Made by a program: the position numbers and the translations under genes
Notes under the pieces: model-generated
Told to the model about the DNA's origin: nothing
What the model saw: only the letters and a program-made list of their open reading frames with translations
Databases searched by the model: none
Shown: positions 197-41,429 of the stretch, in pieces
Numbering within the stretch: position 1 is the stretch's first letter
Layout of the letters: the number at the start of each line of letters is the position of its first letter
DNA from: a virus
Reading direction: 5' to 3' (one strand)
DNA length: 45,996 bases
IMG/VR virus record: IMGVR_UViG_3300025122_000030
Location: 1-45,996 of that record

Positions 197-378
197 TCGT
201 GGGCTTCTTTCTCTATTCTCTCGATTAACTCTGCGGCTTTTTCACTATCATGCAAAGTTAAAAGAAATGTTTTAATCTCGTCAAGTAACAGGGGTTTCTC
301 TTCCTTCTGCGGTTGCCGACTCCAGGTTGACCGATACTCTCCGTAATGATGGCTCATATTAGTATATATCCTTTTCAT
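181..378 (-). CDS. Small hypothetical protein, 65 aa
   Basis: A 65-residue open frame starts at ATG 378, immediately 5' of the leftmost gene, which it overlaps. It is hydrophilic, with a predicted helical C-terminal half (LHDSEKAAELIERIEKEAHEW). It lies just downstream of tRNA-Ile, so it would be the first protein gene after the tRNA pair on this transcript. No family recognised. An inner ATG (residue 8, MSHHYGEY) could also be the start. Confidence 0.55.
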   Translation of the reverse strand: MKRIYTNMSHHYGEYRSTWSRQPQKEEKPLLLDEIKTFLLTLHDSEKAAELIERIEKEAHEWNKI

Positions 379-385
379 AAAAAAA

Positions 386-461
386 TGGTACGCCAGGGTG
401 GGATTGAACCACCGACCTTCCGCTTATAAGACGGATGCTCTAACCCCTGAGCTACTGGCGC
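386..461 (-). tRNA. tRNA-Ile (anticodon UAU)
   Basis: The minus strand folds as a full cloverleaf: acceptor GCGCCAG with CTGGCGT (first pair G-U), D stem GCTC/GAGC, anticodon stem TCCGT/GCGGA around loop CTTATAA, and T stem GGTGG/CCACC with loop TTCAATC. The anticodon at positions 34-36 is UAU, reading the AUA isoleucine codon. CCA is encoded at 386-388 after discriminator A. Most bacteria read AUA with a lysidine-modified CAU tRNA, so a UAU tRNA-Ile is less common and useful to a phage rich in AUA. It lies 10 bp downstream of tRNA-Arg and is probably co-transcribed with it. Confidence 0.95.
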
Positions 462-471
462 ACAAAAGGGG

Positions 472-545
472 TACTCCGAGTAGGAGTCGAACCTACGACC
501 TACAGCTTAGAAGGCTGTTGCTCTATCCGTCTGAGCTATCGGAGC
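472..545 (-). tRNA. tRNA-Arg (anticodon UCU)
   Basis: The cloverleaf is complete: acceptor GCTCCGA/TCGGAGT, D stem GCTC/GAGC, anticodon stem ACAGC/GCTGT with loop CTTCTAA, T stem GTAGG/CCTAC. Anticodon UCU reads AGA. The sequence after the discriminator A is CCC, so the terminal CCA is not encoded and must be added by nucleotidyltransferase, unlike the two other tRNAs here. The 5' half overlaps the 3' end of the protein gene 507-710, whose stop codon falls in the anticodon loop. Confidence 0.95.
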
Positions 546-710
546 GAATGAGCCACTGGTATAAACGGGGTGGTGTCCTGGCACAAGTGCCAATACCGTT
601 CCGTATTCTTGTCGGGTGTACTCCCAAGCTGCTATAGCATCGTGGGGAGCGTCCGTCACTTCTGACTTCAAATCGTTTTTGTAATCCATATAAATAACTG
701 TGTAAATCAT
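507..710 (-). CDS. Small hypothetical protein, 67 aa, ending inside tRNA-Arg
   Basis: The frame starts at ATG 710 in an ATGA overlap with the stop of the preceding gene, which supports translation. The first 54 residues look like an ordinary small soluble protein (MIYTVIYMDYKND start). The last 13 codons are read through the 5' half of tRNA-Arg (peptide APIAQTDRATAF) and the TAA stop lies in the anticodon loop. Either the protein really ends this way, or the reading frame lost an earlier stop. RNase P processing of the tRNA would cut the message before its stop codon. No family recognised. Confidence 0.55.
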   Translation of the reverse strand: MIYTVIYMDYKNDLKSEVTDAPHDAIAAWEYTRQEYGTVLALVPGHHPVYTSGSFAPIAQTDRATAF

Positions 711-901
711 GCTTTGCTTATAACCTCAATGTAGCATTTCCACTCATTCGTGGTGTTTCCGTTTCTCCAAAGAACATTGTAAATATCTTGGGTTTGCGTT
801 TTCTCGATGGCTCGGATAATCCCAACTCCCTGTTGGTGCCACCCAACGAGTTTGAGCATGCCCGGAGGCGGCACAAACTTTACGATATCTCCAACTTTCA
901 T
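707..901 (-). CDS. Small SH3-like barrel protein, 64 aa
   Basis: Begins MKVGDIVKFVPPPGM. The pattern G-D-[LIV]-V-[KR] followed by a turn, a glycine-rich strand and a Y-x-V-x-W strand is that of short beta-barrel proteins with an SH3/KOW-like fold, common among phage accessory genes. At least three neighbours (1116-1340, 2338-2604, 2615-2869) start the same way, so this looks like a paralogous group. The start codon lies only 7 bp from a consensus -10 box, so a transcript from that promoter would be nearly leaderless. Function unknown. Confidence 0.7.
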   Translation of the reverse strand: MKVGDIVKFVPPPGMLKLVGWHQQGVGIIRAIEKTQTQDIYNVLWRNGNTTNEWKCYIEVISKA

Positions 902-907
902 ATATAT

Positions 908-936
908 ATTATATCCTATTTTTTCTCATTTGTCAA
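908..936 (-). promoter_or_regulatory. Sigma-70 consensus promoter, perfect match
   Basis: Reading the minus strand, TTGACA (931-936) is followed by exactly 17 bp and then TATAAT (908-913). All 12 hexamer bases match the consensus. Expected transcription start is about 900-901, the first base of the start codon of 707-901. It should drive that gene, the 507-710 gene and the two tRNAs. Confidence 0.85.
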
Positions 937-946
937 GTCAAGTTAA

Positions 947-1120
947 TGTAAAGGAGGAGCCCCTGGAGAGGATCGCTGTCTTCGCCGCGTCTTCCACTCG
1001 TTAGCCTACTTTCCACTCCTGCATACCTCGCAGGTTTCACCTCACCAGATGGGTACAAGGTTCATTGTAGACATTGAACCCGAGTTCCTTATAAGTGTTC
1101 TCCAGGGGCCAGCACTTACA
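947..1120 (-). ncRNA. Candidate structured RNA closed by an 11-bp perfect stem
   Basis: This 214-bp gene-free stretch holds a long-range stem: bases 959-969 pair perfectly with 1099-1109 (GCCCCTGGAGA with TCTCCAGGGGC), extended by TGTAA/TTACA at the ends (947-951 with 1116-1120). Inside are a 6-bp hairpin GGTTCA/TGAACC (1059-1080), a 5-bp hairpin CCTGC/GCAGG (1018-1034), and two GAGTGGAA copies. It sits between a gene stop and a strong promoter. The family is not recognised (not tRNA, tmRNA, SRP or RNase P RNA). The strand is inferred from its neighbours. Confidence 0.55.
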
Positions 1121-1340
1121 CTTTTAGTTCATACGTCACGTCTTGTTCACTTTCTTCTCCCCGTAGTTCGGACCCATAAAGAATATGGGAACCATTTTCA
1201 AACTGAATAGTATAATGATCGGGAATATAATCAGATGACCCTGATACTTCTACAATCATTCCGGCTTCGCCTCCCAAATAATATGGGGCGTGCATCGGAA
1301 AATCAATCACAATAACTGTATCGCCTGCTTCAAAACTCAT
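1116..1340 (-). CDS. Small SH3-like barrel protein, 74 aa
   Basis: Starts MSFEAGDTVIVIDFP at ATG 1340, directly abutting the TAA of the upstream gene, with GAGGAAG as ribosome-binding site. Like its neighbours it has a G-D-x-V opening strand, a glycine-containing turn (YLGGEAGMIVEV) and Y-T-I-x-F strands, the pattern of a small SH3-like barrel. Charged C-terminal tail. Its stop codon forms the outer edge of the candidate structured RNA downstream. Function unknown. Confidence 0.7.
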   Translation of the reverse strand: MSFEAGDTVIVIDFPMHAPYYLGGEAGMIVEVSGSSDYIPDHYTIQFENGSHILYGSELRGEESEQDVTYELKV

Positions 1341-1712
1341 TTATTCTTCCTCGGGCATTTCATTAAACCACGGCATCGGCTCTCCCGAAACTGCGGTGCG
1401 AGTCTCGCGCCACAAGACTGACCCGTCCAATCGTTTTACATAAACATAGCTAACAGGACTGCTTTCCATATAATCCATAGGATTAAAAAGAAAAGAATCG
1501 AACATTCCGCCCTGATAGTCTACGCCCTTCGTAGGATGAATGGAGCTTAGACCTCCGCGTGTTTGTCCCTTGACAATAATACCATATACTTCGGTATGGG
1601 TTCTCTGTTCAAGTTGTGGAAACATATGGGAAGGATAGCCGTCAAACTGACAATAAGTGCCAAGAAAGCCTCCCCCTTCGGTTTCAATATAAATATGCGA
1701 GCGTGTGCCCAT
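1341..1712 (-). CDS. Conserved phage protein of the MGTRSHI type, 123 aa
   Basis: A longer frame is open upstream, but the ATG at 1712 overlaps the stop of the preceding gene (TAATG) and gives MGTRSHIYIETEGG, a start shared by many phage and some bacterial small proteins that run MGTRS-x-I-x-x-E. The body carries a Y-C-x-F-D-G-Y-P segment typical of that group (CQFDGYPSHM). The biochemical role of the family is not known to me. It belongs to the operon driven from the promoter near 1920. Confidence 0.8.
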   Translation of the reverse strand: MGTRSHIYIETEGGGFLGTYCQFDGYPSHMFPQLEQRTHTEVYGIIVKGQTRGGLSSIHPTKGVDYQGGMFDSFLFNPMDYMESSPVSYVYVKRLDGSVLWRETRTAVSGEPMPWFNEMPEEE

Positions 1713-1897
1713 TAGTTTTCTTCCTTTTGCTGACAAATGCCAGCTTTGATTAGATCGCGGGCGTGTCGTCCAAACCATCCTTGTAGACGCCATGCCAGCC
1801 CTGTGTTAATAAGATGTTGCCATGCTGCGATGAAGGTATCTTCATCGGGGCATTCGACAAAACCTTCTGCCATGCCGACTGCTTGATAATCGCTCAT
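1712..1897 (-). CDS. Conserved phage protein with GLAWRLQGWFGR motif, 61 aa
   Basis: This belongs to a very common family of 60-75 residue phage proteins with the pattern A-E-G-F, then L-(I/V)-(N/D)-T-G-L-A-W-x-L-Q-G-x-(F/Y)-G-R-x-A-x-x-L-I-x-A-G; here INTGLAWRLQGWFGR and LIKAGIC. Function is unknown. AAAGGAGAAC stands 3 bp before the ATG. First gene of a short operon (1897 to about 1116) opened by the promoter at 1920-1948. Confidence 0.85.
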   Translation of the reverse strand: MSDYQAVGMAEGFVECPDEDTFIAAWQHLINTGLAWRLQGWFGRHARDLIKAGICQQKEEN

Positions 1898-1919
1898 TCT
1901 GTTCTCCTTTCTTTCTTAT

Positions 1920-1963
1920 AATATAACATAACTGCCTGTGTCCGTCAAGAACAAAGTTGTCAA
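1920..1963 (-). promoter_or_regulatory. Promoter with doubled -35 box
   Basis: On the minus strand TTGACG (1943-1948), 17 bp, TATATT (1920-1925), with TGT just upstream of the -10 (extended -10). A second -35-like TTGACA lies at 1958-1963, 15 bp further upstream. The same spacing recurs at 2298-2341. Drives 1712-1897 and the genes after it. Confidence 0.75.
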
Positions 1964-1975
1964 GCAAATGTAAAG

Positions 1976-2188
1976 CTATAGATTCTTAAGTGTTTTCAGC
2001 ATCTTTTTCTTGTCCACAATGCCGACATTCGCCACTTTGTGCCAGGGTGTCAAATCAGAAGTGTTTGGTTCCCATTCGACGCATACCCATAGCCAGTCGT
2101 TTCGCATTTTTTGCTCGACAACACGACCAAAATATACATTATTATAACCGCTGCAATAAAAAACGGCTTTATTTACAAAATCTTTCAT
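1976..2188 (-). CDS. Small hypothetical protein, 70 aa
   Basis: The frame is open further upstream into tRNA-Leu, but the start is placed at ATG 2188 (MKDFVNKAVFYCSG), preceded by AAGGA. It follows tRNA-Leu by 15 bp and so lies on the same transcript. It has alternating hydrophobic strands (VYFGRVVEQK, WLWVCVEW) and an acidic-to-basic tail. It may be another small barrel protein of the local group, but lacks the G-D-L-V start. Function unknown. Confidence 0.65.
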   Translation of the reverse strand: MKDFVNKAVFYCSGYNNVYFGRVVEQKMRNDWLWVCVEWEPNTSDLTPWHKVANVGIVDKKKMLKTLKNL

Positions 2189-2203
2189 TTTTTCCTTTTT
2201 AAA

Positions 2204-2288
2204 TGGTAGCCAGAGCGGGACTCGAACCCGCAAGCCTAAAGGCGGCAGATTTTAAGTCTGCTGTGTATACCGATTCCACCATCCGGCC
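2204..2288 (-). tRNA. tRNA-Leu (anticodon UAA)
   Basis: Class II tRNA with a long variable arm: acceptor GGCCGGA/TCTGGCT, D stem GTGG/ACAC, anticodon stem GCAGA/TCTGC with loop CTTAAAA, variable stem around CGCCTTTAGGC, T stem GCGGG/CCCGC. Anticodon UAA reads UUA. CCA is encoded at 2204-2206. The 5' end lies about 10 bp from the -10 box of its promoter, so the primary transcript needs almost no 5' trimming. Confidence 0.95.
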
Positions 2289-2297
2289 TCACTATAT

Positions 2298-2341
2298 AAT
2301 ATAGCATGCTACAACTGGCGCGTCAAGTAGAAAATTGTCAA
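2298..2341 (-). promoter_or_regulatory. Promoter with doubled -35 box, drives tRNA-Leu
   Basis: TTGACG (2321-2326), 17 bp, TATATT (2298-2303) on the minus strand. A further TTGACA (2336-2341) lies 15 bp upstream and overlaps the stop codon of 2338-2604. The -10 region is itself a palindrome (CTATAT-T-ATATAG). Same architecture as 1920-1963. Confidence 0.75.
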
Positions 2342-2604
2342 GATGGTGTTAAAGAATGGAGACATTCTATTTCCCAATCAACAAAATATCTGCGCTTGCC
2401 GTCTAAACAATGCACATTATAAATAATGGCATAGCCGAGTCCCTGGCGATTAACCTCCGATTCAATATCTACTATTATTCCGTAATGAATAGTATCCTGA
2501 TCATCGCCTCTTAAAGTGGATCCTTTATCAAAATCATAATGATAATAACCATATAGATCGTATATGCACCGGACTAAATCACCAATTTGAAAACTATCGC
2601 CCAC
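2338..2604 (-). CDS. Small SH3-like barrel protein, 88 aa
   Basis: Starts at GTG 2604 and reads MGDSFQIGDLVRCIYD. It shares with the next gene upstream (2615-2869) the G-D-L-V-R opening, a mid-protein H-Y/C-G-I-(I/V)-(V/M)-(D/E)-(I/V) strand, a Y-x-(V)-x-C/D-C region and a C-terminal E-x-E-x-L segment, so the two are diverged tandem paralogues. An out-of-frame ATG overlaps the GTG. Function unknown; possibly a nucleic-acid or polymerase-binding barrel, judged only from the fold pattern. Confidence 0.7.
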   Translation of the reverse strand: MGDSFQIGDLVRCIYDLYGYYHYDFDKGSTLRGDDQDTIHYGIIVDIESEVNRQGLGYAIIYNVHCLDGKRRYFVDWEIECLHSLTPS

Positions 2605-2614
2605 ATATTAAATA

Positions 2615-2869
2615 TCACCCTTCTTCTTTTAAATGATGGCTACTTAATAATTCAAACTCATCATGGATCATATATAAGATAGTCCAGCCGGCGTGGTCCT
2701 TGCAATCATAACAATAAACTACAATTGCCTGAGAATCTTTTGCAGATACTTCCATTACAATGCCGTGACAATATTTCGGGTATTCTCTGTTTACGACCCC
2801 CTCGGCTGAAGCCACATAAATTCCCCAATCTACCACCCACCTTACTAAATCGCCACGTTTAATAGCCAC
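2615..2869 (-). CDS. Small SH3-like barrel protein, 84 aa
   Basis: GTG start at 2869 gives MAIKRGDLVRWVVDWG. Tandem paralogue of 2338-2604: same G-D-L-V-R-W/C strand, the strand YCHGIVMEVS matching HYGIIVDIE, and a closing E-F-E-L-L segment matching E-I-E-C-L. Both genes start with GTG preceded by AT, so an out-of-frame ATGTGG is present in each. No clear Shine-Dalgarno sequence precedes it. Function unknown. Confidence 0.7.
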   Translation of the reverse strand: MAIKRGDLVRWVVDWGIYVASAEGVVNREYPKYCHGIVMEVSAKDSQAIVVYCYDCKDHAGWTILYMIHDEFELLSSHHLKEEG

Positions 2870-2891
2870 ATAATAACTATGGGAATATCAG

Positions 2892-3161
2892 TTAAATTGG
2901 ACAACTAAAATTAGAAGTGGTAATGGTTTTTTTTAAATGTGCCTGTAGATCGTCGTGACCCCCAATCACTAAAGTTTCGTGTTCACTTCGGCGTACAATG
3001 ATGGGAAAAGTAGAGCGTCTATGTTGTTTTTTAAGTTGTGTGCGATAACTTTTAGCAAAATCTGTTTCAACAAAAACATATTCCAACTCTGCTTCCATTA
3101 AATCGGCACAGGCACGGAGGCACGCGGGGCAGTCCGTGATTCCGTAAACAAAATAGATCAT
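2892..3161 (-). CDS. Glutaredoxin-like protein
   Basis: An 89-residue thioredoxin-fold protein. The redox motif C-P-A-C is at residues 11-14, followed by a helix. The cis-proline segment TFPIIV lies near residue 52 and the glutathione-site-type IGGHDDL near residue 66, the three hallmarks of glutaredoxins in order. It probably donates electrons to the phage ribonucleotide reductase at 31356-33323 or to a host enzyme. AAAGGAATAAG precedes the ATG. It sits in an operon of small unknown genes, a usual place for phage glutaredoxins. Confidence 0.85.
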   Translation of the reverse strand: MIYFVYGITDCPACLRACADLMEAELEYVFVETDFAKSYRTQLKKQHRRSTFPIIVRRSEHETLVIGGHDDLQAHLKKTITTSNFSCPI

Positions 3162-3162
3162 C

Positions 3163-3429
3163 TTATTCCTTTAATTTAGTTTTAATAATTAAGGCTTGGT
3201 GAAGGGGGCCGCTTGAATAGCGTACTTGCACATCGCATGCGCCTTTAAATAAATTTCTTAGCTTGGTTGTAGCTGGCAACTCCCATTTTCCATCGATCTC
3301 CATCAACACATTCCCAGGCCCCTTGTTGCAAAGTTTAATAGCGTCCCGATGGGAGGCATCGACCGAGGAATAAACACCGTGAAAACTTCCCCGCCCATCA
3401 AATAGACAATAAATATAAATTTTTGTCAT
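3163..3429 (-). CDS. Small hypothetical protein, 88 aa
   Basis: Starts MTKIYIYCLFDGRG in a TGATG overlap with the upstream stop. The N-terminal strand IYIYCLFDG is followed by GVYSSVDASHRDAIKLC, a pattern seen in small phage proteins that begin Y-x-x-F-D and continue G-V-(Y/F)-S-(S/T), but I cannot name a function. Coupled to glutaredoxin downstream. Confidence 0.65.
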   Translation of the reverse strand: MTKIYIYCLFDGRGSFHGVYSSVDASHRDAIKLCNKGPGNVLMEIDGKWELPATTKLRNLFKGACDVQVRYSSGPLHQALIIKTKLKE

Positions 3430-3686
3430 CAGGAAAATTGTTCTTCTTCAAGGGTGTGCATCATCGCACTCGCTAATTCAAACGCTCCTTCGCACATAGC
3501 TATTTCTACATCTTTTCTTGCCATTGTTTCAGGATCATTTTCTAAAAAGGCTTCAATATATTCTTCTTGTAATTTTTGATGCTGCCTAACTGACTCGTCA
3601 AAAACATAAGAAAAATAAATGTTCATTCCAAAATCCTCAAGATCCTTGCCTACCTGTGCAAATGGTCCTACCGTGAATTCTATCAT
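3429..3686 (-). CDS. Small acidic helical hypothetical protein, 85 aa
   Basis: Starts MIEFTVGPFAQVGKD with an ATGA overlap on the gene upstream. Residues 30-85 are strongly helical and acidic (VRQHQKLQEEYIEAFLEND, then ELASAMMHTLEEEQFS). No family recognised. Part of the chain of overlapping genes between 4107 and 2892. Confidence 0.65.
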   Translation of the reverse strand: MIEFTVGPFAQVGKDLEDFGMNIYFSYVFDESVRQHQKLQEEYIEAFLENDPETMARKDVEIAMCEGAFELASAMMHTLEEEQFS

Positions 3687-3862
3687 ACGCTCTCGTCCTC
3701 TTTGGTGCCCTGTGGAATCTCTAAGTCTAATAATATTTGAGTTAAAAACTCCTCCTGGATTTCGCAGTCTTGTATTTCTTTTTTTAACTTTAATTTTTTA
3801 TTCTTCATTACCTGTAACTGAATCAAGCAAAATTGCCGCACTGATTCAATTTGATTTCTCAC
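3683..3862 (-). CDS. Small coiled-coil hypothetical protein, 59 aa
   Basis: The frame is open further upstream, but the best start is GTG at 3862: it overlaps the upstream stop (GTGA) and is preceded by GGAGG nine bases away. The product is Lys/Glu/Gln-rich with heptad-like leucines and isoleucines (FCLIQLQVMKNKKLKLKKEI), so probably a short coiled coil. Function unknown. Confidence 0.6.
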   Translation of the reverse strand: MRNQIESVRQFCLIQLQVMKNKKLKLKKEIQDCEIQEEFLTQILLDLEIPQGTKEDESV

Positions 3863-4099: not shown

Positions 4100-5182
4100 T
4101 TAATCACTCATCGACATTTTACTGTCATAAATATTATACTTCAAATCATTGAGCTTTGCAAGTGCTGATTCTCTTCGCAGAATTTTAAAGGCGATGTTTT
4201 CAGATGAATACTCGCGTTGAGGGCTTGTTAAGCCTGCTTTTCTCATATTGCGAATTTTCTCTTTTAATCTCTCAATACTTTTGAGAGCCATCGCAGGCTT
4301 ATCCTCTCCAAAATAAGAAATTAAATTAATTTGCGTCATAATATCATCACTTTTCTTGCGAGCCGTCGCAAAATCTATTTCAACATCTTGGGGATTCGGC
4401 TCTACAAGCCAGCGATCAAACAAGATTGAATAGATACCCGTCGAATGATGTGAGTCTCCGACGTTCTCAACATATATCTCTACCTCAAACCCATATAGTT
4501 TAATGTCGTGTAAGCCGTTCCAGCGCATTCTGGCGCTGTCAAAAAACGCTTTGACTAGTTCGATGTCCTCATCAATTTTCTCAAAGTCTACGACCAAGTG
4601 TAGGTCCACGTCTGAATATTCCGACCAGTTGTAATTGGCAAGTGAGCCGGTCAGTCGCAAGTCCTCGATGCCCACCTCTATTTCCAAGCCTTCCAAAAAG
4701 TCATTGACAATTTCTTTTAAGCGATCTGAGATGTCAGGCCACAACTTATTGTCACGCCAAAACTCGGGTTGCAATTCATCATGGACCTCAAAGCTTTCTT
4801 CTTCAACCTCTTCTTCTAATTGGCGATCAAAAGTTACATGGGAACCCATTTTTTGTGTGAAAGGTGGTGTGTTTTTTTGACCACCAACCTTCAACATGGA
4901 ATCTCGATCTTTAATATAGCGATCAATACGCTTGCGGTAGCCGGGCCGGCCCTCCGAATCCTCTTCTAAACCACCGGGTGCACCGGGTGGTGCAGAAATA
5001 TCATTAAACTTCTTCTTTTTGAAATTAGGGCGTCGTTTTTTGGGATACCCACCTTTCTTTTGTGGACCCTTATCAAGAAACCAACTTAAGGCGCGTTCGA
5101 GCCCGGCGCCGCTTTTTCTCTTCGGGGTCTTTTTCTTTTTTCGAGCTTCGGTTAAGAAGTTCTGCCACGTATCTAAAGACAT
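4100..5182 (-). CDS. Pol-beta superfamily nucleotidyltransferase with capsid-targeting-like N terminus
   Basis: 360 residues. Residues 178-200 carry the nucleotidyltransferase signature L-T-G-S-L-A (GS at 179-180) and S-D-V-D-L (190-194), giving the two metal-binding Asp 191 and 193. A third acidic site may be the Glu in VEIYV near 236. A helical C-terminal domain follows. Residues 1-120 are very basic and low-complexity. The first residues, MSLDTWQNFLTEAR, resemble the short N-terminal tags (x-F-L-x-E-A) of proteins packaged in T4-like capsids. The target (tRNA, protein or small molecule) cannot be read from sequence. I infer it may be injected with the DNA. It has its own promoter and a 100-nt leader. 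Confidence 0.75.
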   Translation of the reverse strand: MSLDTWQNFLTEARKKKKTPKRKSGAGLERALSWFLDKGPQKKGGYPKKRRPNFKKKKFNDISAPPGAPGGLEEDSEGRPGYRKRIDRYIKDRDSMLKVGGQKNTPPFTQKMGSHVTFDRQLEEEVEEESFEVHDELQPEFWRDNKLWPDISDRLKEIVNDFLEGLEIEVGIEDLRLTGSLANYNWSEYSDVDLHLVVDFEKIDEDIELVKAFFDSARMRWNGLHDIKLYGFEVEIYVENVGDSHHSTGIYSILFDRWLVEPNPQDVEIDFATARKKSDDIMTQINLISYFGEDKPAMALKSIERLKEKIRNMRKAGLTSPQREYSSENIAFKILRRESALAKLNDLKYNIYDSKMSMSD

Positions 5183-13076: not shown

Positions 13077-14651
13077 TTACTCCGTTTGTATAATCCCAAA
13101 GTTTGTGGTAATCAAAGTGCCGGCGCAACTCGCAGCATTCTGTAGTGCTGTGCGCGTAACTTTGATGGGATCAATAATACCAATTTTATAACAATCTACT
13201 AGCTCTGAGGTTCTAAAATCCCAGGCCTGTGTCTTATCGGATTGAAGAATTTCTTGAATAATGAGATCGGCTGACTCGCCGGCATTTAATGCCATTTGGC
13301 GGAGGGGGGCGCTGCATGCCTCTTTTACAATAGAAATTCCCAATGCCTGATCACTGTTATCCAGAGATGACAGCTTAATGTTTGCTGCAGCACGTAGTAA
13401 CGCTGTACCACCGCCGGGCACTATTCCCTCTTCTTGTGCAGAGTTTACTGCCTCTAGCGCATCTTCAATGCGATGTTTTTTCTCGGTCATTTCAACTTCT
13501 GTTGCGCCGCCGACGCGGATGACACCGACCCCGGAGGCCAGTCTTACAATACGGTCTTGGATTTTTTCGGCGTCAGAAATTGATTCAGTTTCCTTAATCG
13601 CGTTTTTAAAACGAGTGATTCTCTCTTCAACTAATTCAAAATTAGCATTACCACCAACAATGGTTGTACTATATTTATTACTCTCGATAAAATTTGCACT
13701 ACCAAGATCGGTTAATTTTACATCTTCTAGTTTCTGACCGCTTTCTCGCGTCACAAAAGTTGCGCCCACCGACAACGCCAAGTCGTCTAAAATACTGCGT
13801 CTCTCTTCTCCATAGTAGGGTGCCTTGATGGCTGCGATCTTTAATGTTCCGCGCAGGGCGTTCATAATCATAGCAGCGAGGGCTTGGCCTTCTACTTCTT
13901 CAGCAACAATAATAAGCGCCCTTCCTTCGCGCGCCACCAATTCCAACAAAGGCAAAATAGGCTCGACCGACGATATCTTATGGTCGGTTACAAAAATCAA
14001 CGGCTCTTCGTGATGCATCATAGATCGACGCTCATCGGTTATAAACGCACCAGCGCAATAACCAATGGGCAACTTAAATCCTTCGGTAATATCTAAGGAA
14101 GTTTCGAGGGATCGCGATTCTTCAATTGCGATTGAGCCATCTTGCCCAACCTTGTCAACTGCCATCGCTATAAGCTCGCCTATTATCAAATCATTATTTG
14201 CAGAGATGCTCGCAATGTGTGTGATCTCCTCGGTGCTGGTAATGGGTGTTGACATGTCAGTCAACTCTTTAACCACCATTTTAACAGCAGCGTCGATGCC
14301 GCGCTGTAATTCAATGGGCGATACTCCAGACGCTATGTAACGCTGCGCTTCTAATAATATGGCGCGCGCTAATACTGTGGCCGTTGTCGTTCCATCTCCA
14401 GCATCGCTATTGGTTTGAACTGCCGCCTGTTTAATAATCTCTGCTGCCGCGTTCTCAAATGGATCGTCTAACGCAACAAAGTGCGCGACGGTTACACCGT
14501 CTTTTGTAATGAAAGGAGTCTGTCCCTTTTCTTGTAGAAGAACGTTTCTGCCGCGTGGTCCTAGTGTGGAGGCCACATTGTCGGCCAGTGTGTTAACACC
14601 GTTCATAATCTTCTGCTGTAATTCTCTCTGGCTGTCGTAAGCTCTGCTCAA
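13077..14651 (-). CDS. groEL: GroEL-family chaperonin (60 kDa)
   Basis: 524 residues, full-length relative to bacterial GroEL (about 548). It folds proteins in an ATP-driven double ring. Visible signatures: TLGPRGRNV (29-37), KDGVTVA (50-56), GDGTTTATVLARAI with the ATP-binding Asp at 86, the catalytic Asp of RIEDAL, and EEGIVPGGGTALL near the end. It starts at TTG 14651 (SD GAGG); no ATG lies near, and alignment of the N terminus with GroEL supports this start. The hydrophobic GGM repeat tail is missing: the protein ends LITTNFGIIQTE. A perfect promoter lies 21 bp upstream. A GroES-like gene lies 16 kb away at 30846-31127. Phage GroELs are known from a few large phages; the usual client is inferred to be a capsid or other phage protein. 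Confidence 0.95.
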   Translation of the reverse strand: MSRAYDSQRELQQKIMNGVNTLADNVASTLGPRGRNVLLQEKGQTPFITKDGVTVAHFVALDDPFENAAAEIIKQAAVQTNSDAGDGTTTATVLARAILLEAQRYIASGVSPIELQRGIDAAVKMVVKELTDMSTPITSTEEITHIASISANNDLIIGELIAMAVDKVGQDGSIAIEESRSLETSLDITEGFKLPIGYCAGAFITDERRSMMHHEEPLIFVTDHKISSVEPILPLLELVAREGRALIIVAEEVEGQALAAMIMNALRGTLKIAAIKAPYYGEERRSILDDLALSVGATFVTRESGQKLEDVKLTDLGSANFIESNKYSTTIVGGNANFELVEERITRFKNAIKETESISDAEKIQDRIVRLASGVGVIRVGGATEVEMTEKKHRIEDALEAVNSAQEEGIVPGGGTALLRAAANIKLSSLDNSDQALGISIVKEACSAPLRQMALNAGESADLIIQEILQSDKTQAWDFRTSELVDCYKIGIIDPIKVTRTALQNAASCAGTLITTNFGIIQTE

Positions 14652-16189: not shown

Positions 16190-16846
16190 TCATATAATAA
16201 TGTCTGCAATACCTAGTTCGACTGCTTCTTCTGCTGATAAATAGACATTAACTTTTCGTTCGAGCATCTTTTTCAGTCTTGATTTTGTCATTTTTGTTTC
16301 TGCCACCAAACAATCTGAGTACATTTCTTGCAATTGTTCGATTGCTTCCATTTCATTTAACATGTTGTGCAGGTTTCCCTGGTTGCCTCCCATAACAGTG
16401 TGAAGCATGATTCTGCAGTTTTTTGCAATCTGTCTTTGGCCCTTTGTTCCGGCTGCTAAAAGCAAAACGCCGGCCGACATAACTTTGCCCAATCCGATTG
16501 TATGAATCTCAGTATCTTCTCTGATAATCCTCATTGTATCATAAAGCGCGAACATATCGTCAGCGGATCCTCCATAGGTTGAAAGATAAAACTTAATGGG
16601 CTTCTTGTCTTCTTCCTTTTCTTTTAATTTATTAACCTCGTTCAAATATAAAAAAGCGTGAACCAAATCTGCAATTTTTTCTTCTACTACGTCCGCAAAA
16701 AGGCCGATCATATTTAACTCGGGCTCTTCGGTGTCGTCCTTCTCCTTTAATATCGAGGGATCAAATAATATTATTTTCTTGTCTTCCTCTTCTTCATCCT
16801 TGTTGGTGATGAAGTTGGTTAGCGCGCTCTTGATTTTGTCAATCAT
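16190..16846 (-). CDS. ClpP-like serine protease (first copy)
   Basis: 218 residues, close to ClpP (about 195-207) with an acidic N-terminal extension (residues 13-40). ClpP fold motifs in order: FYLSTYGGSADDMFALYDTM (the S-x-G-G strand-helix), nucleophile Ser124 in GKVMSAGVLLLAAG, His149 in RIMLHTV, and VYLSAEEAVELGIAD at the end. The usual catalytic Asp is not obvious in ERKVNVYLSAEEA, where ClpP has D-T-D-R-D. No Clp ATPase is encoded in the window. Possible roles: working with host ClpX/A, or a prohead-type protease, since it lies among probable virion genes. SD AAGGAG. Confidence 0.8.
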   Translation of the reverse strand: MIDKIKSALTNFITNKDEEEEDKKIILFDPSILKEKDDTEEPELNMIGLFADVVEEKIADLVHAFLYLNEVNKLKEKEEDKKPIKFYLSTYGGSADDMFALYDTMRIIREDTEIHTIGLGKVMSAGVLLLAAGTKGQRQIAKNCRIMLHTVMGGNQGNLHNMLNEMEAIEQLQEMYSDCLVAETKMTKSRLKKMLERKVNVYLSAEEAVELGIADIII

Positions 16847-18190: not shown

Positions 18191-18517
18191 TTAAAGTTCT
18201 GAGTGCTCTTCTGCAATGAGATCAAAGATGTCTATAACCTGCTGTTCGGAGAGTCCTAAGTCACTTAAGTTTTCTTTTCCGGTCTGCCTAAGTTTTTCAG
18301 ATTTAGCTACGCGGCTTTTAGATTGAGGCTTTACTTCGTTTATAAAACCATGAATCCGGTCGTCGCTTTCAATGTACCCCGTAATTAAATGTCGAAAGAA
18401 AGCGGCCTGCGATAAACCATCGTGCTTCAGTCTAATTAAAAGCTTTGCATGCCGATGGTCATTGTCAGTAAAAACAATTCGCTTTGTTAAATTGCCATAA
18501 TCTATTTCATTAGCCAT
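18191..18517 (-). CDS. Hypothetical protein, 108 aa
   Basis: Start set at ATG 18517, which shares a base with the upstream stop (TAATG) and follows AGGAAG. Begins MANEIDYGNLTKRIVFTDND. The segment LIRLKHDGLSQAAFFRHLIT resembles the helix-turn-helix of ribbon-helix-helix-type proteins, and the basic centre (KPQSKSRVAKSEKLRQTGK) would suit nucleic-acid binding. The C-terminal acidic tail ends DLIAEEHSEL. No firm family. An 81-bp gap downstream (18110-18190) holds no gene and no clear terminator. Confidence 0.6.
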   Translation of the reverse strand: MANEIDYGNLTKRIVFTDNDHRHAKLLIRLKHDGLSQAAFFRHLITGYIESDDRIHGFINEVKPQSKSRVAKSEKLRQTGKENLSDLGLSEQQVIDIFDLIAEEHSEL

Positions 18518-19542
18518 TACCACTTCCTGGTTGTAATATGCGTCTGGCTTTCTGATAAGCTTGAGGGCGTCTGTTCAATAAACGTTGCTTTAGATTGAAG
18601 CTCTTCGATTGACCTTGCGCCGCTATACGACAGGCCCGACCGAATCCCTCTTTCTATGTCCTCAAGAATAACGGCAGCTTTTCCGCCATAGGGAACACGG
18701 GATGCAATACCTTCTAGCGAAGAATATTTTCCGCGCCAGTCTGTCTGCGCCTCTTTGCTGGCCATTCCTCGATAGGATTTCCATACGCTACCGTTAGCTT
18801 CTCTAAAAATTTCTCCTGGCGCCTCAGCCGCACCTGCGAGCAGGGAGCCACACATTACTGCGTCGGCCCCCGCGGCGAGAGCTTTTACCATGTCGCCAGA
18901 ATTGCGCAAGCCGCCGTCAGCAATGATGGCTACGTCCCGATCTGTTTGCGCGCAATCTAAGATTGTTTGTAAGCCAGGAAGGCCATGGCCCGTTTGAATT
19001 CGCGTTGAGCAAATGGAGCCCCCGCCAATATTGCACCGCACAGAGCTAGCACCCCAATCAGAGAGATCGTTAATCGCCTCCAAGGTTGCAACGTTGCCTG
19101 CCATAATATGAATGTCGTAATCAAACATAGTGCGTAACTGTTGTAAGGCTGCCTTCATTAATATATGGTGCCCGTGGGCTACGTCTATGCAGATAAATGT
19201 TGCGCCGGCTTCAGTTGCTGCAATGGTGCGGTCAGTATAATCTCCCGTAACTCCAACAGCGGCACCAATATTAATCTCGCCGGCATTATCTGTTGCTATA
19301 GCAATATGGCGCGCTTGTTCTTCTATCGAATTATATCGATGAACAATGCCCGCGGCTCCCCTTTTGGCCAACTCTACAGCCATTGGTGCAGTGGTTACTG
19401 TGTCCATTGGGGATGAAAAAATTGGCGTTTGTAATATTAAACCATCGCCTAGGTCTGTAGAGATATCAATCTCCGAACGTGATTCGATATCGGAATATTG
19501 GGGTGACAATAATACATCGTCATATGAAATTGTTTTACGCAT
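18517..19542 (-). CDS. IMP dehydrogenase / GMP reductase family enzyme
   Basis: 341 residues of TIM-barrel, with start at ATG 19542 (TAATG overlap); the longer frame is not needed. Catalytic loop GGGSICSTR with Cys178, phosphate site IIADGGLRNSGDMVKALAAGAD, and flap YRGMASKEAQ then VPYGGKA. There is no CBS (Bateman) regulatory domain, so its length matches GMP reductase (about 347), but the flap (Y-R-G-M-A-S, V-P-Y) is like IMP dehydrogenase, while T-G-H-G after the loop is closer to GMP reductase. It acts on purine nucleotides, IMP to XMP or GMP to IMP. The missing CBS domain removes ATP/GTP feedback. Operon with the thioredoxin gene. Confidence 0.85.
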   Translation of the reverse strand: MRKTISYDDVLLSPQYSDIESRSEIDISTDLGDGLILQTPIFSSPMDTVTTAPMAVELAKRGAAGIVHRYNSIEEQARHIAIATDNAGEINIGAAVGVTGDYTDRTIAATEAGATFICIDVAHGHHILMKAALQQLRTMFDYDIHIMAGNVATLEAINDLSDWGASSVRCNIGGGSICSTRIQTGHGLPGLQTILDCAQTDRDVAIIADGGLRNSGDMVKALAAGADAVMCGSLLAGAAEAPGEIFREANGSVWKSYRGMASKEAQTDWRGKYSSLEGIASRVPYGGKAAVILEDIERGIRSGLSYSGARSIEELQSKATFIEQTPSSLSESQTHITTRKW

Positions 19543-19901
19543 TAGGCATAACTCTCGATGAAATTTTTGATATCGCTTCTCCGATACCATGTATCTTTGT
19601 GAGGTTTCTCCGGGTCGCTCAAGATTTTAACTTGGGTTTGCGGAGGGTCTGCAATCACCATTGCGATTGTGGGAACCCCATTAAACTTTAACTGTCTTTC
19701 AACCTCGGGATGGTCATCGATGTTGAATGCAAAAAAATAGACGCCTTCATAATCAGACGATATCTCTTCATAAAAATCCTTTAAAGCATGACAGTAGTGA
19801 CACTCATTAGAATAGAACTTAATCAAGCACGTAGCTGCTTCTCTGGTCTTGCCATCAAGCAAGTTGTTCAATGCCTTAATCGACAATCGTTGTACTGTCA
19901 T
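19542..19901 (-). CDS. Thioredoxin-like protein
   Basis: 119 residues, thioredoxin fold: a strand (CLIKFYS) leading into the redox site C-H-Y-C (Cys35 and Cys38 region, NECHYCHAL), the FAFNIDDHPEVERQLKFNGV segment equal to thioredoxin's V-D-x-x-x-x-x-x-x-x-Y-x-V, and the cis-proline VPTIAM. The site C-H-Y-C differs from the usual C-G-P-C. It may reduce the class II ribonucleotide reductase or the IMPDH-like enzyme. SD AAGGAG; overlaps the zinc protein gene upstream. Confidence 0.8.
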   Translation of the reverse strand: MTVQRLSIKALNNLLDGKTREAATCLIKFYSNECHYCHALKDFYEEISSDYEGVYFFAFNIDDHPEVERQLKFNGVPTIAMVIADPPQTQVKILSDPEKPHKDTWYRRSDIKNFIESYA

Positions 19902-24057: not shown

Positions 24058-24663
24058 CTATTTAAAGTCAAATTTAACTGTAGCTTCAATTTTCAAGTGT
24101 GGGACGTGAAGATGATTTGCAAGATTGTGCTTCAAACACTCGTCAGATTCTAGGAACCAATCTGCGTGTCCTTTTTCATGAATAATATCTAAAAAATAAT
24201 CTTCGTGATGGCCACAATTTTTTGCCATCATCTTATAAACTTTTTGGTTGAGCCGCTCCGTTTCTTCTGCATCGGCTTTAACCTCTTCTACTTTTCCAAT
24301 AGTCATTGACGAGACATCATGAATCATCAAGGTAGCGTCTGGGTCCATATAGCGCATACCTTCTTTACCAAAGCTAAAAAGGAGCGCACCACATGACATG
24401 GCCTTTCCTTGAACTATTGTAGCAACTGAAATGCGAGAATGTCTTATGTCAGAAATCATTGACATCAAACTATATACTTGCCCTCCATAGCTATCTATAA
24501 TTATAGGGACCACCGGTTGGCCTGTGTTTTGGGCTTTGCTCATTTTGTCCGAAAACTCTTTTGCGGACGCTTCATCAAATTTTTTGACGCGGATAACAAT
24601 CGGAAGATCGTCAATGAGTTCTTTATCTTTCAATAAAGGACTAAAATTTTTAATAACATTCAT
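24058..24663 (-). CDS. ClpP-like serine protease (second copy)
   Basis: 201 residues, the normal ClpP length. Ordered motifs: PIIIDSYGGQVYSLMSM, Ser90 in GKAMSCGALLF, His115 in TLMIHDVS, and ADWFLESDECLKHNLAN at the end where ClpP has D-x-F-x-x-x-E-A-x-x-x-G-L. It is clearly different from the copy at 16190-16846, so these are not a recent duplication. It sits just downstream of dnaE. No Clp ATPase in the window; it may use the host ATPase or interfere with host ClpP. Confidence 0.8.
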   Translation of the reverse strand: MNVIKNFSPLLKDKELIDDLPIVIRVKKFDEASAKEFSDKMSKAQNTGQPVVPIIIDSYGGQVYSLMSMISDIRHSRISVATIVQGKAMSCGALLFSFGKEGMRYMDPDATLMIHDVSSMTIGKVEEVKADAEETERLNQKVYKMMAKNCGHHEDYFLDIIHEKGHADWFLESDECLKHNLANHLHVPHLKIEATVKFDFK

Positions 24664-24671
24664 ATTATTAA

Positions 24672-27600
24672 CTAGCCCAATAGCCTGAAAGTTCTACCAA
24701 TTGCATAGGTAGAAAACCCCCATTGCTCATCATACTTTAATCTTGCCATATAAGGTCGGTTCAAGAAGATCGCATCTTTCTCTGGTTTAATGCCCCAGCA
24801 GCGGATTTTGGTCAACTCGTTATTAGAATCAATTGTCTCCACAATCCAATAAAGTTTTCCATTTTTTGTTTTCTTCGGAATAATCTTGCGCGGAATAAAC
24901 CAGCACACTTCCAAATCGGTATCAAATTCAGAAATGGGAGGAATAAATTTCTCTTGGAGTTTCTCCACCGTTTCTGTTTTAATGACAAGGTTAATCGGGA
25001 AGACTCCTGTAAGCTCTGTCTTAAATTGAATGATCTCTTCTTCGGTGAAATCGCCTTCGGGCCGATACAGTTCCAGATTCTCTCGAAACTTCTTTAAGTT
25101 CTTCGGACGCTCGACCACACAAGCTGACCAAAAATGCTTTCGACCAGTGAATCTGTCATCCATGATGTTGTCCAGGGCTCCTCCACGACATAGCGCGTCG
25201 AGGGCTTTCTTGTTGAATTTGCTATAAGATATTTCTTCTCTAAACAGAAGATCTTCTGCGTTCTTAAAAGGTCGATGCTCAAGAATCTGTTCAATCGCTG
25301 ACATACCTAGACCCTTAATGGAAGTGAGCGGCTGAATAAGCGTTTTGCCATCTTTGCTAATCTCCCACACGGTTCCAGATTTGTTGATGTCTAACGGAGC
25401 GATCTTGAAGCCATACTTCTTGGCGATGTTGATTGCCTTTTCTTTTCTTGTCTCCGGCTCTTTGTCGAGGAAGGCGGCCATCCACTCAGAAGGATAATAA
25501 TTCCACAGCCACGCGCATTGGTAAGAGATAATGCTGTATGATACTGCATGCGACTTATTGAAGCCGTATCCAGAGAAATACTCAAACTTATCCCACAAGG
25601 CTTCTGCCTTGTCTCTATCGATCCCCTTGGCTGCGCAGCCGGTGACGAACTTAACTCTAAGTTTAGTTTTGATCCCCCCCTTGCCAGTTCCCTTTTTAGT
25701 AAGAATCTTGCGTAGGAGGTTACCCTCGTCCAGCGTAAGGCCACCGAGCCTATGAGCCAACAATGCAATCTGTTCCTGAAAAATCAAGAACCCAAAGGTT
25801 TCGCCAGTAATTTCTTGTGACTCTTCGGAAAGATACGAGACATATTGGGGATGGTTCTTTGCTTCCATATAATCTGCGTCAACGCCAGCCGACAATGGCC
25901 CGGGCCGAAAGATAGAAGTTACGGCAGAAATATCAATGATGCTCGTTGGTTGCACTCTTGTGCAAAAACTCTGCGCTCCCTGTTCGGTAAACTGAAAGAC
26001 ACCGGCCCACTTGCCTTGGTGAAAGACGTTCTTATAAACTTCTTGATCATCGAAATCGATTACATCGGGGTGGATCGTCTTATTATAATAGTCTAATATG
26101 TCTTCAAAAGTTGGCTCTTCCACTCCATAATGGCGGCGCAAGATATGTTCGATGCACCCTTCCATCATCTTTAAGGTGGAGAGGCCCAATAGATCAAACT
26201 TAATGAAACCCATTGGTTCTAAGTGTCGAACGTTCTGGCCTTCTGCCCAGGGCGCCTGTCGCACGCCTCCTGAATTAATCAGCGGCATGGACCGGTCAAG
26301 ATCCTCTGCGATTACTACGCCGCCTGCATGCCGAGAACAGGAACGAACCTGTCCCACAAGGCCTTCAACGCGCGCTTTGACTTCTGGATACTTTTGCAAA
26401 AAGCTTTGGAGGGTGACAGAATATTCCATCACCTCTTCCCAAGTGGGGGCGTATACCCCAGCTTTAATACCGTGCTTCTTTTTGGCTTCGGGCATTGCTT
26501 CTCGCATCATCACGCTGGTAACGTTATTAACCTCGGTGAAAGGGATGCCATAGAGCTTCGAGATATCTTTAATAAGAGATCTCAACTGCAAAGTGTTCCA
26601 GTTCGAAATCGGGGCTACACAATCCTCACCCCACATCTCGACCAGCTTCTCTTTCAGGATCATGCTATCTGATACATCATAATCAATATCGGGATAATCT
26701 GTTGCGTCTGAACGCAAGAAGCGCGAGAACAGGAGGCCGTGTCTAATGGGATCTACTTGTGTAATGCCAAGACAGTATGCGACGAGGGAGCCTGCGGCTG
26801 AGCCGCGGCCGGGGCCGGCAAGCATCTGCTTCGTTGCTTCGTCAGCAATCGCTTTCATGGTCAAGAAATACTTAGAGAATCCTCGATCATCAATAACGTC
26901 TAGTTCTTGCTTGAGGCGCGCTAAGTATTCTGGATCTTCGTTTAATCCTTTCTCGCGCAATCCTTCTAGAGCATAGTTAACCAATGCATGCGTAGCAGTT
27001 GTGCCGGCAGGAACCACAAAGTCTGGAAGGCGCACCGTCGCGTCTGGGAAGAAGCTCTCGATGCGGTCGTGGGCAATATGGTATGTCTCTGTAATACTGT
27101 TCATTACCAAGTCATCATCATACTCAAAGCCTTGGCTCTTGGAATAACTTTCATAGCTCTCCCACATTTGCTCGCCATTCTTGGGATATAGTTCATAGCC
27201 GATCTCTTCTACGTCCGCGGGGAATTCTGCCCCCTCACCCCAGGATGGTGTTCCTTTTCCCAGCCATCCTAGGCGCTTGTATAGCTCTCTATCCTTCCAT
27301 GCAGTCTGGTTCGGGTAGTGACTGTCGGCTGTAGAAATCAGCTTCATATTAAACTCTTCAGAAATCTGAACGATGAGCTGGTTAAGTTCGTGCTGCTCTT
27401 TAATGTTGTTCCACTGTAGCTCTCCATACCAGCGATCTCCGAAGATCGCTTGCATGCGGCGAGTGGTATCGCGCATGTCATCGAGGGCTGCTTCACGATC
27501 AACACCGGTGCGGTTGCCTTCATCGTCGTAGGTGCCGTTCTCCCAGTAGTTTCCGGCATACACGCCGCCTAGGCACGCAGACGCAGCGATCACACCTTCG

Positions 27601-28112
27601 CCATACTTCTCTAGCAGTGCATAATCCATGCGAGGATAGCGATAGAAATTTTCGCTCTTATAGCTCTCGGATACAAGCTTGAAAAGGTTATTAAGGCCCG
27701 TCTGATTTTGAGCCAAAAGAATTAGATGGCGTCTACGTCGCAATAGGTCTTGAACTTTTTTGCTATCAGTTTCATCCTCTACAGTCGCGCCAGACGCTGC
27801 GTCTTTCTTGGCGCCGCGAGAGCGCTTCTTGTCGGCCATAACCGTTTCGTATTCTTCGCGCCACTCTTCGATTGAAGGAATAAAATACGCCTCCACTCCA
27901 AAAATAGGCTTGAAGTCTCTTCCCTCTGCGTGCATCTTTTTGGCGTGCAATACCTGATATGCTAGACCGTTCATATTGCCGTGGTCAGTGAGTGCTAACG
28001 CATCACTGCCATTCTCATATGCAAAGTCCATGTGTGCTTGCGGATAGCCAATGGCATCAAACAGCGATCCCGCTACGCTGTGGGCGTGAAGCCCTACGAA
28101 TTTAATCGTCAT
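24672..28112 (-). CDS. dnaE: DNA polymerase III alpha subunit (DnaE type, family C)
   Basis: 1146 residues, near the length of bacterial DnaE. The N-terminal PHP domain has LHAHSVAG (8-15) and LTDHGN (41-46) with metal-type His/Asp residues. The polymerase core has GPGRGSAAGSLVAY (433-446) and the catalytic aspartates in PDIDYD (Asp475 and Asp477), plus VRSCSRHAGGVVI, FRPGPLSAGVD, GYGFNKSHAVSYS and IKGLG in the usual order of DnaE thumb, palm and fingers motifs. It synthesises DNA with 5'-3' polarity. Full-length DnaE is rare among phages, and a family A polymerase is also present at 39009-40193. A promoter lies in the 3' end of the preceding gene. Confidence 0.96.
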   Translation of the reverse strand: MTIKFVGLHAHSVAGSLFDAIGYPQAHMDFAYENGSDALALTDHGNMNGLAYQVLHAKKMHAEGRDFKPIFGVEAYFIPSIEEWREEYETVMADKKRSRGAKKDAASGATVEDETDSKKVQDLLRRRRHLILLAQNQTGLNNLFKLVSESYKSENFYRYPRMDYALLEKYGEGVIAASACLGGVYAGNYWENGTYDDEGNRTGVDREAALDDMRDTTRRMQAIFGDRWYGELQWNNIKEQHELNQLIVQISEEFNMKLISTADSHYPNQTAWKDRELYKRLGWLGKGTPSWGEGAEFPADVEEIGYELYPKNGEQMWESYESYSKSQGFEYDDDLVMNSITETYHIAHDRIESFFPDATVRLPDFVVPAGTTATHALVNYALEGLREKGLNEDPEYLARLKQELDVIDDRGFSKYFLTMKAIADEATKQMLAGPGRGSAAGSLVAYCLGITQVDPIRHGLLFSRFLRSDATDYPDIDYDVSDSMILKEKLVEMWGEDCVAPISNWNTLQLRSLIKDISKLYGIPFTEVNNVTSVMMREAMPEAKKKHGIKAGVYAPTWEEVMEYSVTLQSFLQKYPEVKARVEGLVGQVRSCSRHAGGVVIAEDLDRSMPLINSGGVRQAPWAEGQNVRHLEPMGFIKFDLLGLSTLKMMEGCIEHILRRHYGVEEPTFEDILDYYNKTIHPDVIDFDDQEVYKNVFHQGKWAGVFQFTEQGAQSFCTRVQPTSIIDISAVTSIFRPGPLSAGVDADYMEAKNHPQYVSYLSEESQEITGETFGFLIFQEQIALLAHRLGGLTLDEGNLLRKILTKKGTGKGGIKTKLRVKFVTGCAAKGIDRDKAEALWDKFEYFSGYGFNKSHAVSYSIISYQCAWLWNYYPSEWMAAFLDKEPETRKEKAINIAKKYGFKIAPLDINKSGTVWEISKDGKTLIQPLTSIKGLGMSAIEQILEHRPFKNAEDLLFREEISYSKFNKKALDALCRGGALDNIMDDRFTGRKHFWSACVVERPKNLKKFRENLELYRPEGDFTEEEIIQFKTELTGVFPINLVIKTETVEKLQEKFIPPISEFDTDLEVCWFIPRKIIPKKTKNGKLYWIVETIDSNNELTKIRCWGIKPEKDAIFLNRPYMARLKYDEQWGFSTYAIGRTFRLLG

Positions 28113-37348: not shown

Positions 37349-38116
37349 CTAGCCTGCTACCAACTCATTAAATGCACGGTCGACGTCAGTGGCATCGGTC
37401 GTGCTATATTTGGTAGTCTCGCGTGAGCGCGACTCAGCGGATCCGTCTCCGGCAAGCTGCTCGTCGAGAATAGCGTCTACCTGCTCTGAACTAAGTCGTT
37501 CAAATAGACCGTCAAAGTCAGGCATGCCATCAAGGAGGGCGGGGATGGCTTCAGTATCCTCAAGCAATGTTGAGGTGTTACGACGCATTTTCAGGCTCGT
37601 CTGGGGGTAGGCACCGGGTTTCGTGGGCTTCGTATAGGTAAGAGTAATATCTGTACCCTCCTGAACGTCTGTGACGTCCCCATATTCCGGGTCCAAAATG
37701 TAGCCAAGAAGAAGTTCGTATGCGGTCTTACCATAGCCGTATACCTTAATTCCCTCGTCTTCTCGACCACGCACAACGACAGGGCTGAAATAGCGAGTGC
37801 GTACAAAGAGTGACTTTGCAAGCTTCTTGCTTTCCTCGTCGTTGGTTTCGCTTCCTTCGCGCCAAAGCTTGGAAGCGAATTCGCAAATCGGACAGTTCTC
37901 TCCATAGTTCCGCTTGGGACAGAGGACACCGCCTCTGTGATCACCTACGTTATAATGAAAGAACATTTCCTTCAATGGATCTCCGTCGTTAGTTGGAATG
38001 ATCCGAATGTCGGTGTCTCCCTCGTCTGGCTTGAACCAAACAGAGTTAGAATCACCCTTGTTTTCACCGCGCAAAGTTGCGAGCTTGCGGCGCATAAGCT
38101 CCATATCAATTGACAT
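37349..38116 (-). CDS. Single-stranded DNA-binding protein (T4 gp32-like)
   Basis: 255 residues. Short basic N-terminal segment (MSIDMELMRRKLATLR), then an OB-fold core with a zinc site arranged like gp32: His54, Cys66, Cys75 and Cys78 (FFHYN and LCPKRNYGENCPICEF; T4 uses H64, C77, C87, C90). The C-terminal part is acidic and Ser/Thr-rich. It coats ssDNA at the fork and helps the recombinase. SD GGAGAAATTGAAT. Its promoter overlaps the end of the tubulin-like gene. Confidence 0.85.
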   Translation of the reverse strand: MSIDMELMRRKLATLRGENKGDSNSVWFKPDEGDTDIRIIPTNDGDPLKEMFFHYNVGDHRGGVLCPKRNYGENCPICEFASKLWREGSETNDEESKKLAKSLFVRTRYFSPVVVRGREDEGIKVYGYGKTAYELLLGYILDPEYGDVTDVQEGTDITLTYTKPTKPGAYPQTSLKMRRNTSTLLEDTEAIPALLDGMPDFDGLFERLSSEQVDAILDEQLAGDGSAESRSRETTKYSTTDATDVDRAFNELVAG

Positions 38117-41404: not shown

Positions 41405-41429
41405 TAAACTATCCTCATAGAAGTGCCCC

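Follow-up and report, generated by a model that had tools for sequence, protein, structure and literature searches.

Apart from tRNAs, riboswitch-like leaders and giant RNAs, lytic phages have few known small structured RNAs. Phage phi29 encodes a packaging RNA (pRNA), similar in length to the RNA described here, whose hairpin loops form tertiary pairs, and phage T4 makes RNA C and RNA D, small stable RNAs of unknown function produced with the phage tRNAs. Phages and prophages also carry ROOL and GOLLD, ornate RNAs located near tRNA islands (PMC12286853), and marine phage metagenomes have yielded the manA and wcaG motifs, structured RNAs of cyanophage (PMC2864571). The latter are catalogued as cis-regulatory and located near metabolic genes (PMC2864571), whereas the RNA of the present locus lies ahead of the predicted promoter of the next gene and fits neither the manA nor the wcaG model. 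We describe this RNA in a linear virus record of 45,996 bases, analyzed at its full length (hereafter the window) and not closely related to any of the cultured viruses searched, and compare it with homologues found in three other uncultured phage records (G007, G016 and G052). Together these sequences indicate that the element is probably a working RNA part of the viruses that carry it.

Extent and fold of the element

On the evidence of sequence comparison, the minus strand of the window at 958-1111 is a structured RNA element with a well-supported fold. An initial annotation had pointed to an unassigned structured RNA in a 214-base gene-free gap, and we confirm both the gap, which separates open reading frames (ORFs) at 707-901 and 1116-1340, and the assignment, which now has behind it three homologues, compensatory changes in stems and the lack of an Rfam match. 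That annotation gave no strand; the element lies on the minus strand, as do the genes and promoters here. Its extent, ~153 nt, is marked by conservation between the window and G007, which starts at GGCCCCTGGAG, stops at CTCCAGGGGC and drops sharply at both ends; the core of the element is 97.8% identical between these two records, compared with 57-78% for the neighboring genes. Because stop codons interrupt every forward frame, and the conserved block has lost ~26 bases in G016 and G052 and differs by a 2-base indel in G007, we conclude that the element is not coding.

The ends of the RNA are closed by a long-range stem, P1, in which the 5' arm GGCCCCUGGAGA (1099-1110) pairs with the 3' arm UCUCCAGGGGCU (958-969). 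The plus strand at 959-969 reads GCCCCTGGAGA, of which 1099-1109 is the perfect reverse complement, so that the coordinates first given for this stem were exact, with 11 of 11 Watson-Crick pairs, or 12 pairs if the terminal G-U at 958/1110 is counted. P1 thus measures 12 bp in the window (one of them G-U) and 11 bp in G007, and in G016 and G052 an unrelated but complementary stem, AGAGAATGTCAAG with CTTGACATTCTCT, provides 13 Watson-Crick pairs, or 15 with wobble pairs. Inside P1, the P2 hairpin (1059-1080) consists of GGUUCA and UGAACC around the loop AUGUCUACAA; its stem is identical in all four homologues and, because it never varies, comparison affords its pairing no independent test. The P2 loop holds the 5' strand of a pseudoknot that the initial annotation had missed, in which GUCUAC (1067-1072) pairs with the downstream strand GUAGGC (1004-1009) to form 6 bp, including a G-U pair that is invariant in 4/4 sequences.

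Between and beside these helices lie the other parts of the fold. A variable arm includes the predicted hairpin CCUGC[GAGGUAU]GCAGG (1018-1034), present as originally described along with the P2 hairpin and the repeat GAGTGGAA; the arm comprises two small predicted hairpins in the window, gains a 2-nt insertion in the loop of the 1018-1034 hairpin in G007 and is reduced to a CCC-UUYG-GGG hairpin in G016 and G052. The letters of this arm had a hammerhead-like appearance, a resemblance we rejected since they are absent from G016 and G052. The repeat, TTCCACTC/GAGTGGAA, falls at 992-999 and 1011-1018, where it forms two conserved purine-rich GAGUGGAA motifs, the first (1011-1018) present as GAGUNGAA in 4/4 and the second (992-999) as GAGUGNAA in 4/4, with its 3' end overlapping helix P5a. 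The GGA motifs suggested a CsrA/RsmA sponge, and this too was set aside, as the motifs lose GGA in G016 and G052. Finally, the P5 hairpin GGA-AGA-CGCGGCGAAGACAGCG-A-UCC (970-995) stands beside P1 at the 3' side and comprises P5a (993-995/970-972) and P5b (987-989/974-976).

Homologues and covariation

The homologues were sought among 80 related viral contigs gathered by their ribonucleotide reductase (RNR) gene, where BLAST followed by a covariance model run on whole related records identified G007 (203 kb) and G016 (196 kb), and in a pattern scan of IMG/VR, which identified G052 (38 kb). The model matches the window at 963-1105 with 180 bits, and G052, which was left out of model building, scores 98 bits (E 3.7e-24). 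The core of G007 is nearly identical to that of the window, and the closing stem of G016 and G052 is completely different; the four carriers are uncultured viruses, most likely marine, with only distant relationships to one another. Each record holds a single copy, near small genes and oriented with the flanking genes. The gene order of the window (recombinase, exonuclease/polymerase, helicase) resembles that of Microcystis phage Mel-JY01. Its replication genes form an unusual mix: in the region 39009-45302, a 394-aa ORF (39009-40193) is recognizable as DNA polymerase family A only by the C-terminal part (Pfam match to profile 292-380), accompanied elsewhere by a PolIII alpha gene (24672-28112) and a T4 gp32-like protein (37349-38116). 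The window also encodes two ClpP-like proteases (16190-16846 and 24058-24663), GroEL (13077-14651) and an IMP dehydrogenase/GMP reductase-domain protein (18517-19590).

Two further viral scans recovered no other copies, a scan with the P2 pattern gave no further copy among the matches listed, and the other RNR-related records that were searched, most of which are fragments ending short of the region, yielded no element. Rfam 15 (4227 models) returned no match to window 900-1160 at E 10; matches of the CRISPR-DR25 and P36 models on L088 were at chance level and on the opposite strand. BLAST with the window and G016 forms found only matches of 20-30 bases in phages (E ~1 or more) and no match in plasmids, and searches of 395 and 398 genomes from two bacterial phyla, run with filters under which weak matches can be lost, detected no copy. 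Weak model matches on L118, L212 and L259 were inspected and judged to be chance, a match on L086 covered 16 bases with no similarity around it, and candidates in L124, in W02 (Synechococcus phage DSL-LC02) and in four bacterial metagenome-assembled genomes (L224-L227) failed as matches.

The length of P1 stands out against shuffled sequence: when the 214-base gap underwent 300 dinucleotide shuffles, the longest comparable stem was 9, and when the flanks alone underwent 2000 mononucleotide shuffles, a closing stem at least as long as the real one arose no more than once for any of the four homologues. The advantage in folding energy over shuffles is only mild (z -2.0 to -3.3 over several stretches, -2.1 to -3.3 for the four homologues), so that comparison with relatives was needed, and the strong main support for the element is accordingly comparative rather than energetic. 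The initial annotation had named homologous gaps lacking covariation as an outcome that would refute it; this test was run and did not do so, as the homologous gaps covary, with the compensatory changes expected of a conserved structured noncoding RNA. The pseudoknot reads GUCACC/GGUGGC in G016 and G052, with two of its six pairs changed on both sides and pairing kept; one P5a pair changes from G-C to A-U between the two groups; and P1 is wholly replaced yet complementary. Across 20 pairs, 97.5% of the cells in the alignment are paired, as opposed to 25-40% after displacing the partner strand by 1-3 columns, and the covariation score was reached by 1 of 500 shuffles, in a comparison set of four sequences that form two close pairs, so that nearly all of the covariation falls on one evolutionary contrast. 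Because alignments A5 and A7 place gaps wrongly in P1, a script rather than the pair counter was used to assess covariation in this stem.

Genomic setting and promoters

All genes and promoters around the element are on the minus strand, and promoter motifs occur on the coding strand versus the other strand 10 to 0 times in the window and 10 to 0, 8 to 0 and 7 to 0 times in the other three records. Read in the direction of transcription, the window presents a predicted promoter at 1948-1920 (TTGACG-17-TATATT, extended -10), small genes down to position 1116, the RNA, a second predicted promoter at 936-908 (TTGACA-17-TATAAT, sigma70-like, 12/12) and the next gene, a 64-aa ORF beginning MKVGDIV (707-901) that thus has its own promoter. 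The last of the upstream genes, a 74-aa ORF (1116-1340), ends 5 nt before the element and follows an ORF beginning MGTRSHIYIE (1341-1712) with a weak match to phrog_1987 (unknown function); both are syntenic in G007. G052 shows the same order, with predicted promoters at 4648-4676 and 5432-5460 of L228 and an 11/12 match between the RNA and the next gene, and a TTGAC..TATAwT motif match directly follows the RNA in G007 and G016. Because a predicted promoter separates the RNA from the next gene, the RNA would end the upstream unit rather than lead the downstream one. No intrinsic terminator (GC-rich stem and U run) was detected at the element, no terminator was found near the RNA in the window or G052, and neither search revealed a promoter dedicated to the RNA. 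The gene downstream encodes an MKVGD-type small protein in the window and G007 and is a different gene in G016 and G052; the upstream gene also differs between these groups.

The surroundings have further features of their own. The minus strand of the window at 300-3700, like L228, L230 and L232, is packed with very small SH3/KOW-like ORFs that start MKVGDLV or similar, are often in tandem with overlapping stop and start codons, and are served by many strand-specific, near-consensus sigma70 promoters, some of which put the transcription start at or beside the ATG and would give leaderless mRNAs. The initial annotation extended the outer stem by TGTAA/TTACA, an extension we do not retain, as the TGTAA arm is absent in G007 and TTTACAT stands before sigma70-like promoters that lack the RNA (window minus-strand position 44023 and G025). 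TTTACAT followed within ~15 bases by TTGAC recurs before promoters with or without the RNA in the window, G016, G052 and G025 (in the window at minus-strand positions 44023 and 45045, which correspond to ~1974 and ~952 in plus-strand numbering), and is perhaps an upstream promoter element.

ARAGORN detected three tRNAs only in the window (386-461, 470-545 and 2204-2288), and the element is neither a tRNA nor a tmRNA; no tRNA was found within the 11-14 kb around the RNA in G016 and G052. In the relative G025, tRNA genes come after small ORFs like those that precede the RNA, indicating that the RNA occupies a slot also used by tRNAs, and the syntenic interval from tRNA-Leu to tRNA-Ile lacks the RNA, which marks it as an accessory element.

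Proposed function and relation to known phage RNAs

We favor, as reasonably probable, a new family of small phage RNAs that are clamped at their ends, excised from the 3' end of an early transcript and active in trans. The host sigma70 RNA polymerase would transcribe the RNA at the very end of a short early unit composed of small genes, and cutting in or beside P1 would release it. A stem of 11-15 pairs with no fixed sequence would be a suitable target for RNase III in this step, as it is in other stable RNAs that are excised. P1, free in sequence but never shorter than 11 pairs, fits an end clamp or the substrate of a double-strand-specific nuclease. The released RNA may then persist as a compact molecule whose P2/pseudoknot core and GAGUGGAA motifs bind a protein or another RNA, with the invariant core and the purine-rich stretches GAGUNGAAAG and CGAGUGNAAGA as its likely binding surface. 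Since the RNA sits in the tRNA-type slot of these phages, a role related to translation is our first guess. That it represents an undescribed class of pseudoknotted phage RNAs, released from mRNA 3' ends and trans-acting early in infection, with host translation or defence as examples of what they might affect, is a more tentative proposition that we consider rather doubtful.

The main rival is a cis-acting 3' UTR element that stays on the upstream mRNA, where it would block 3' exonucleases or control decay. The RNA begins a few bases after the last stop codon of the unit in both the window and G007, and in G016 and G052 it likewise comes directly after a gene; no terminator was found near it, and a 3' roadblock requires just such a long clamp stem. 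We nevertheless think this explanation unlikely, as the upstream gene differs between the two groups and a role in stability would not call for a pseudoknot or for a 100-nt core that hardly varies. A position upstream of a same-strand gene would suit a cis-regulatory leader or riboswitch; riboswitch aptamers are similar in size and can contain pseudoknots, and the manA and wcaG elements occur in marine phages (PMC2864571). The cis-acting leader suggested by the initial annotation nonetheless fares poorly, and we judge it very improbable: a strong predicted promoter (window, G052) or a promoter motif (G007, G016) intervenes before the next gene in all four records, the type of that gene differs between groups, and no Rfam family matches.

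Two other possibilities concern the molecule itself. A self-cleaving ribozyme that parts the upstream mRNA from what follows would account for a compact pseudoknotted core with invariant unpaired bases, an intergenic location in a phage and a closing stem of free sequence, but the RNA is bigger than most small self-cleaving ribozymes and matched no Rfam ribozyme family, making this improbable in our estimation. Covariation alone cannot separate RNA from single-stranded DNA, so the same pairings could belong to a replication origin or a packaging or recombination site folding as DNA; a G-U pair that never changes across the four pseudoknots, an orientation constant with transcription and the presence of one copy only per record near small genes render such a site the most remote of these readings. 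Excised, trans-acting RNA remains our preferred interpretation, and an RNA more constrained than the genes around it, whose fold is testable down to a covarying pseudoknot, offers a concrete starting point for studying RNA-based functions of uncultured phages.

Compared with the small phage RNAs, the present RNA differs from phi29 pRNA in having no Rfam match, in occurring in large phages of another group and in showing no link to a packaging gene, with no terminase identified in its vicinity. Of the initial annotation's interpretation the structured RNA stands while nothing supports the packaging role, for which no pRNA-type match was found, or the cis-acting leader. It likewise has no detectable homology to T4 RNA C and RNA D and, unlike them, follows small protein genes. 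Like ROOL and GOLLD, orphan RNAs that often lie beside tRNA genes, it is phage-encoded and pseudoknotted, but those RNAs are cages of several hundred nucleotides, and the present RNA, at ~153 nt, matches them in neither sequence nor structure. Orphan structured RNAs of phages are already known, and the family described here, unmatched in Rfam, differs from them in size and placement.
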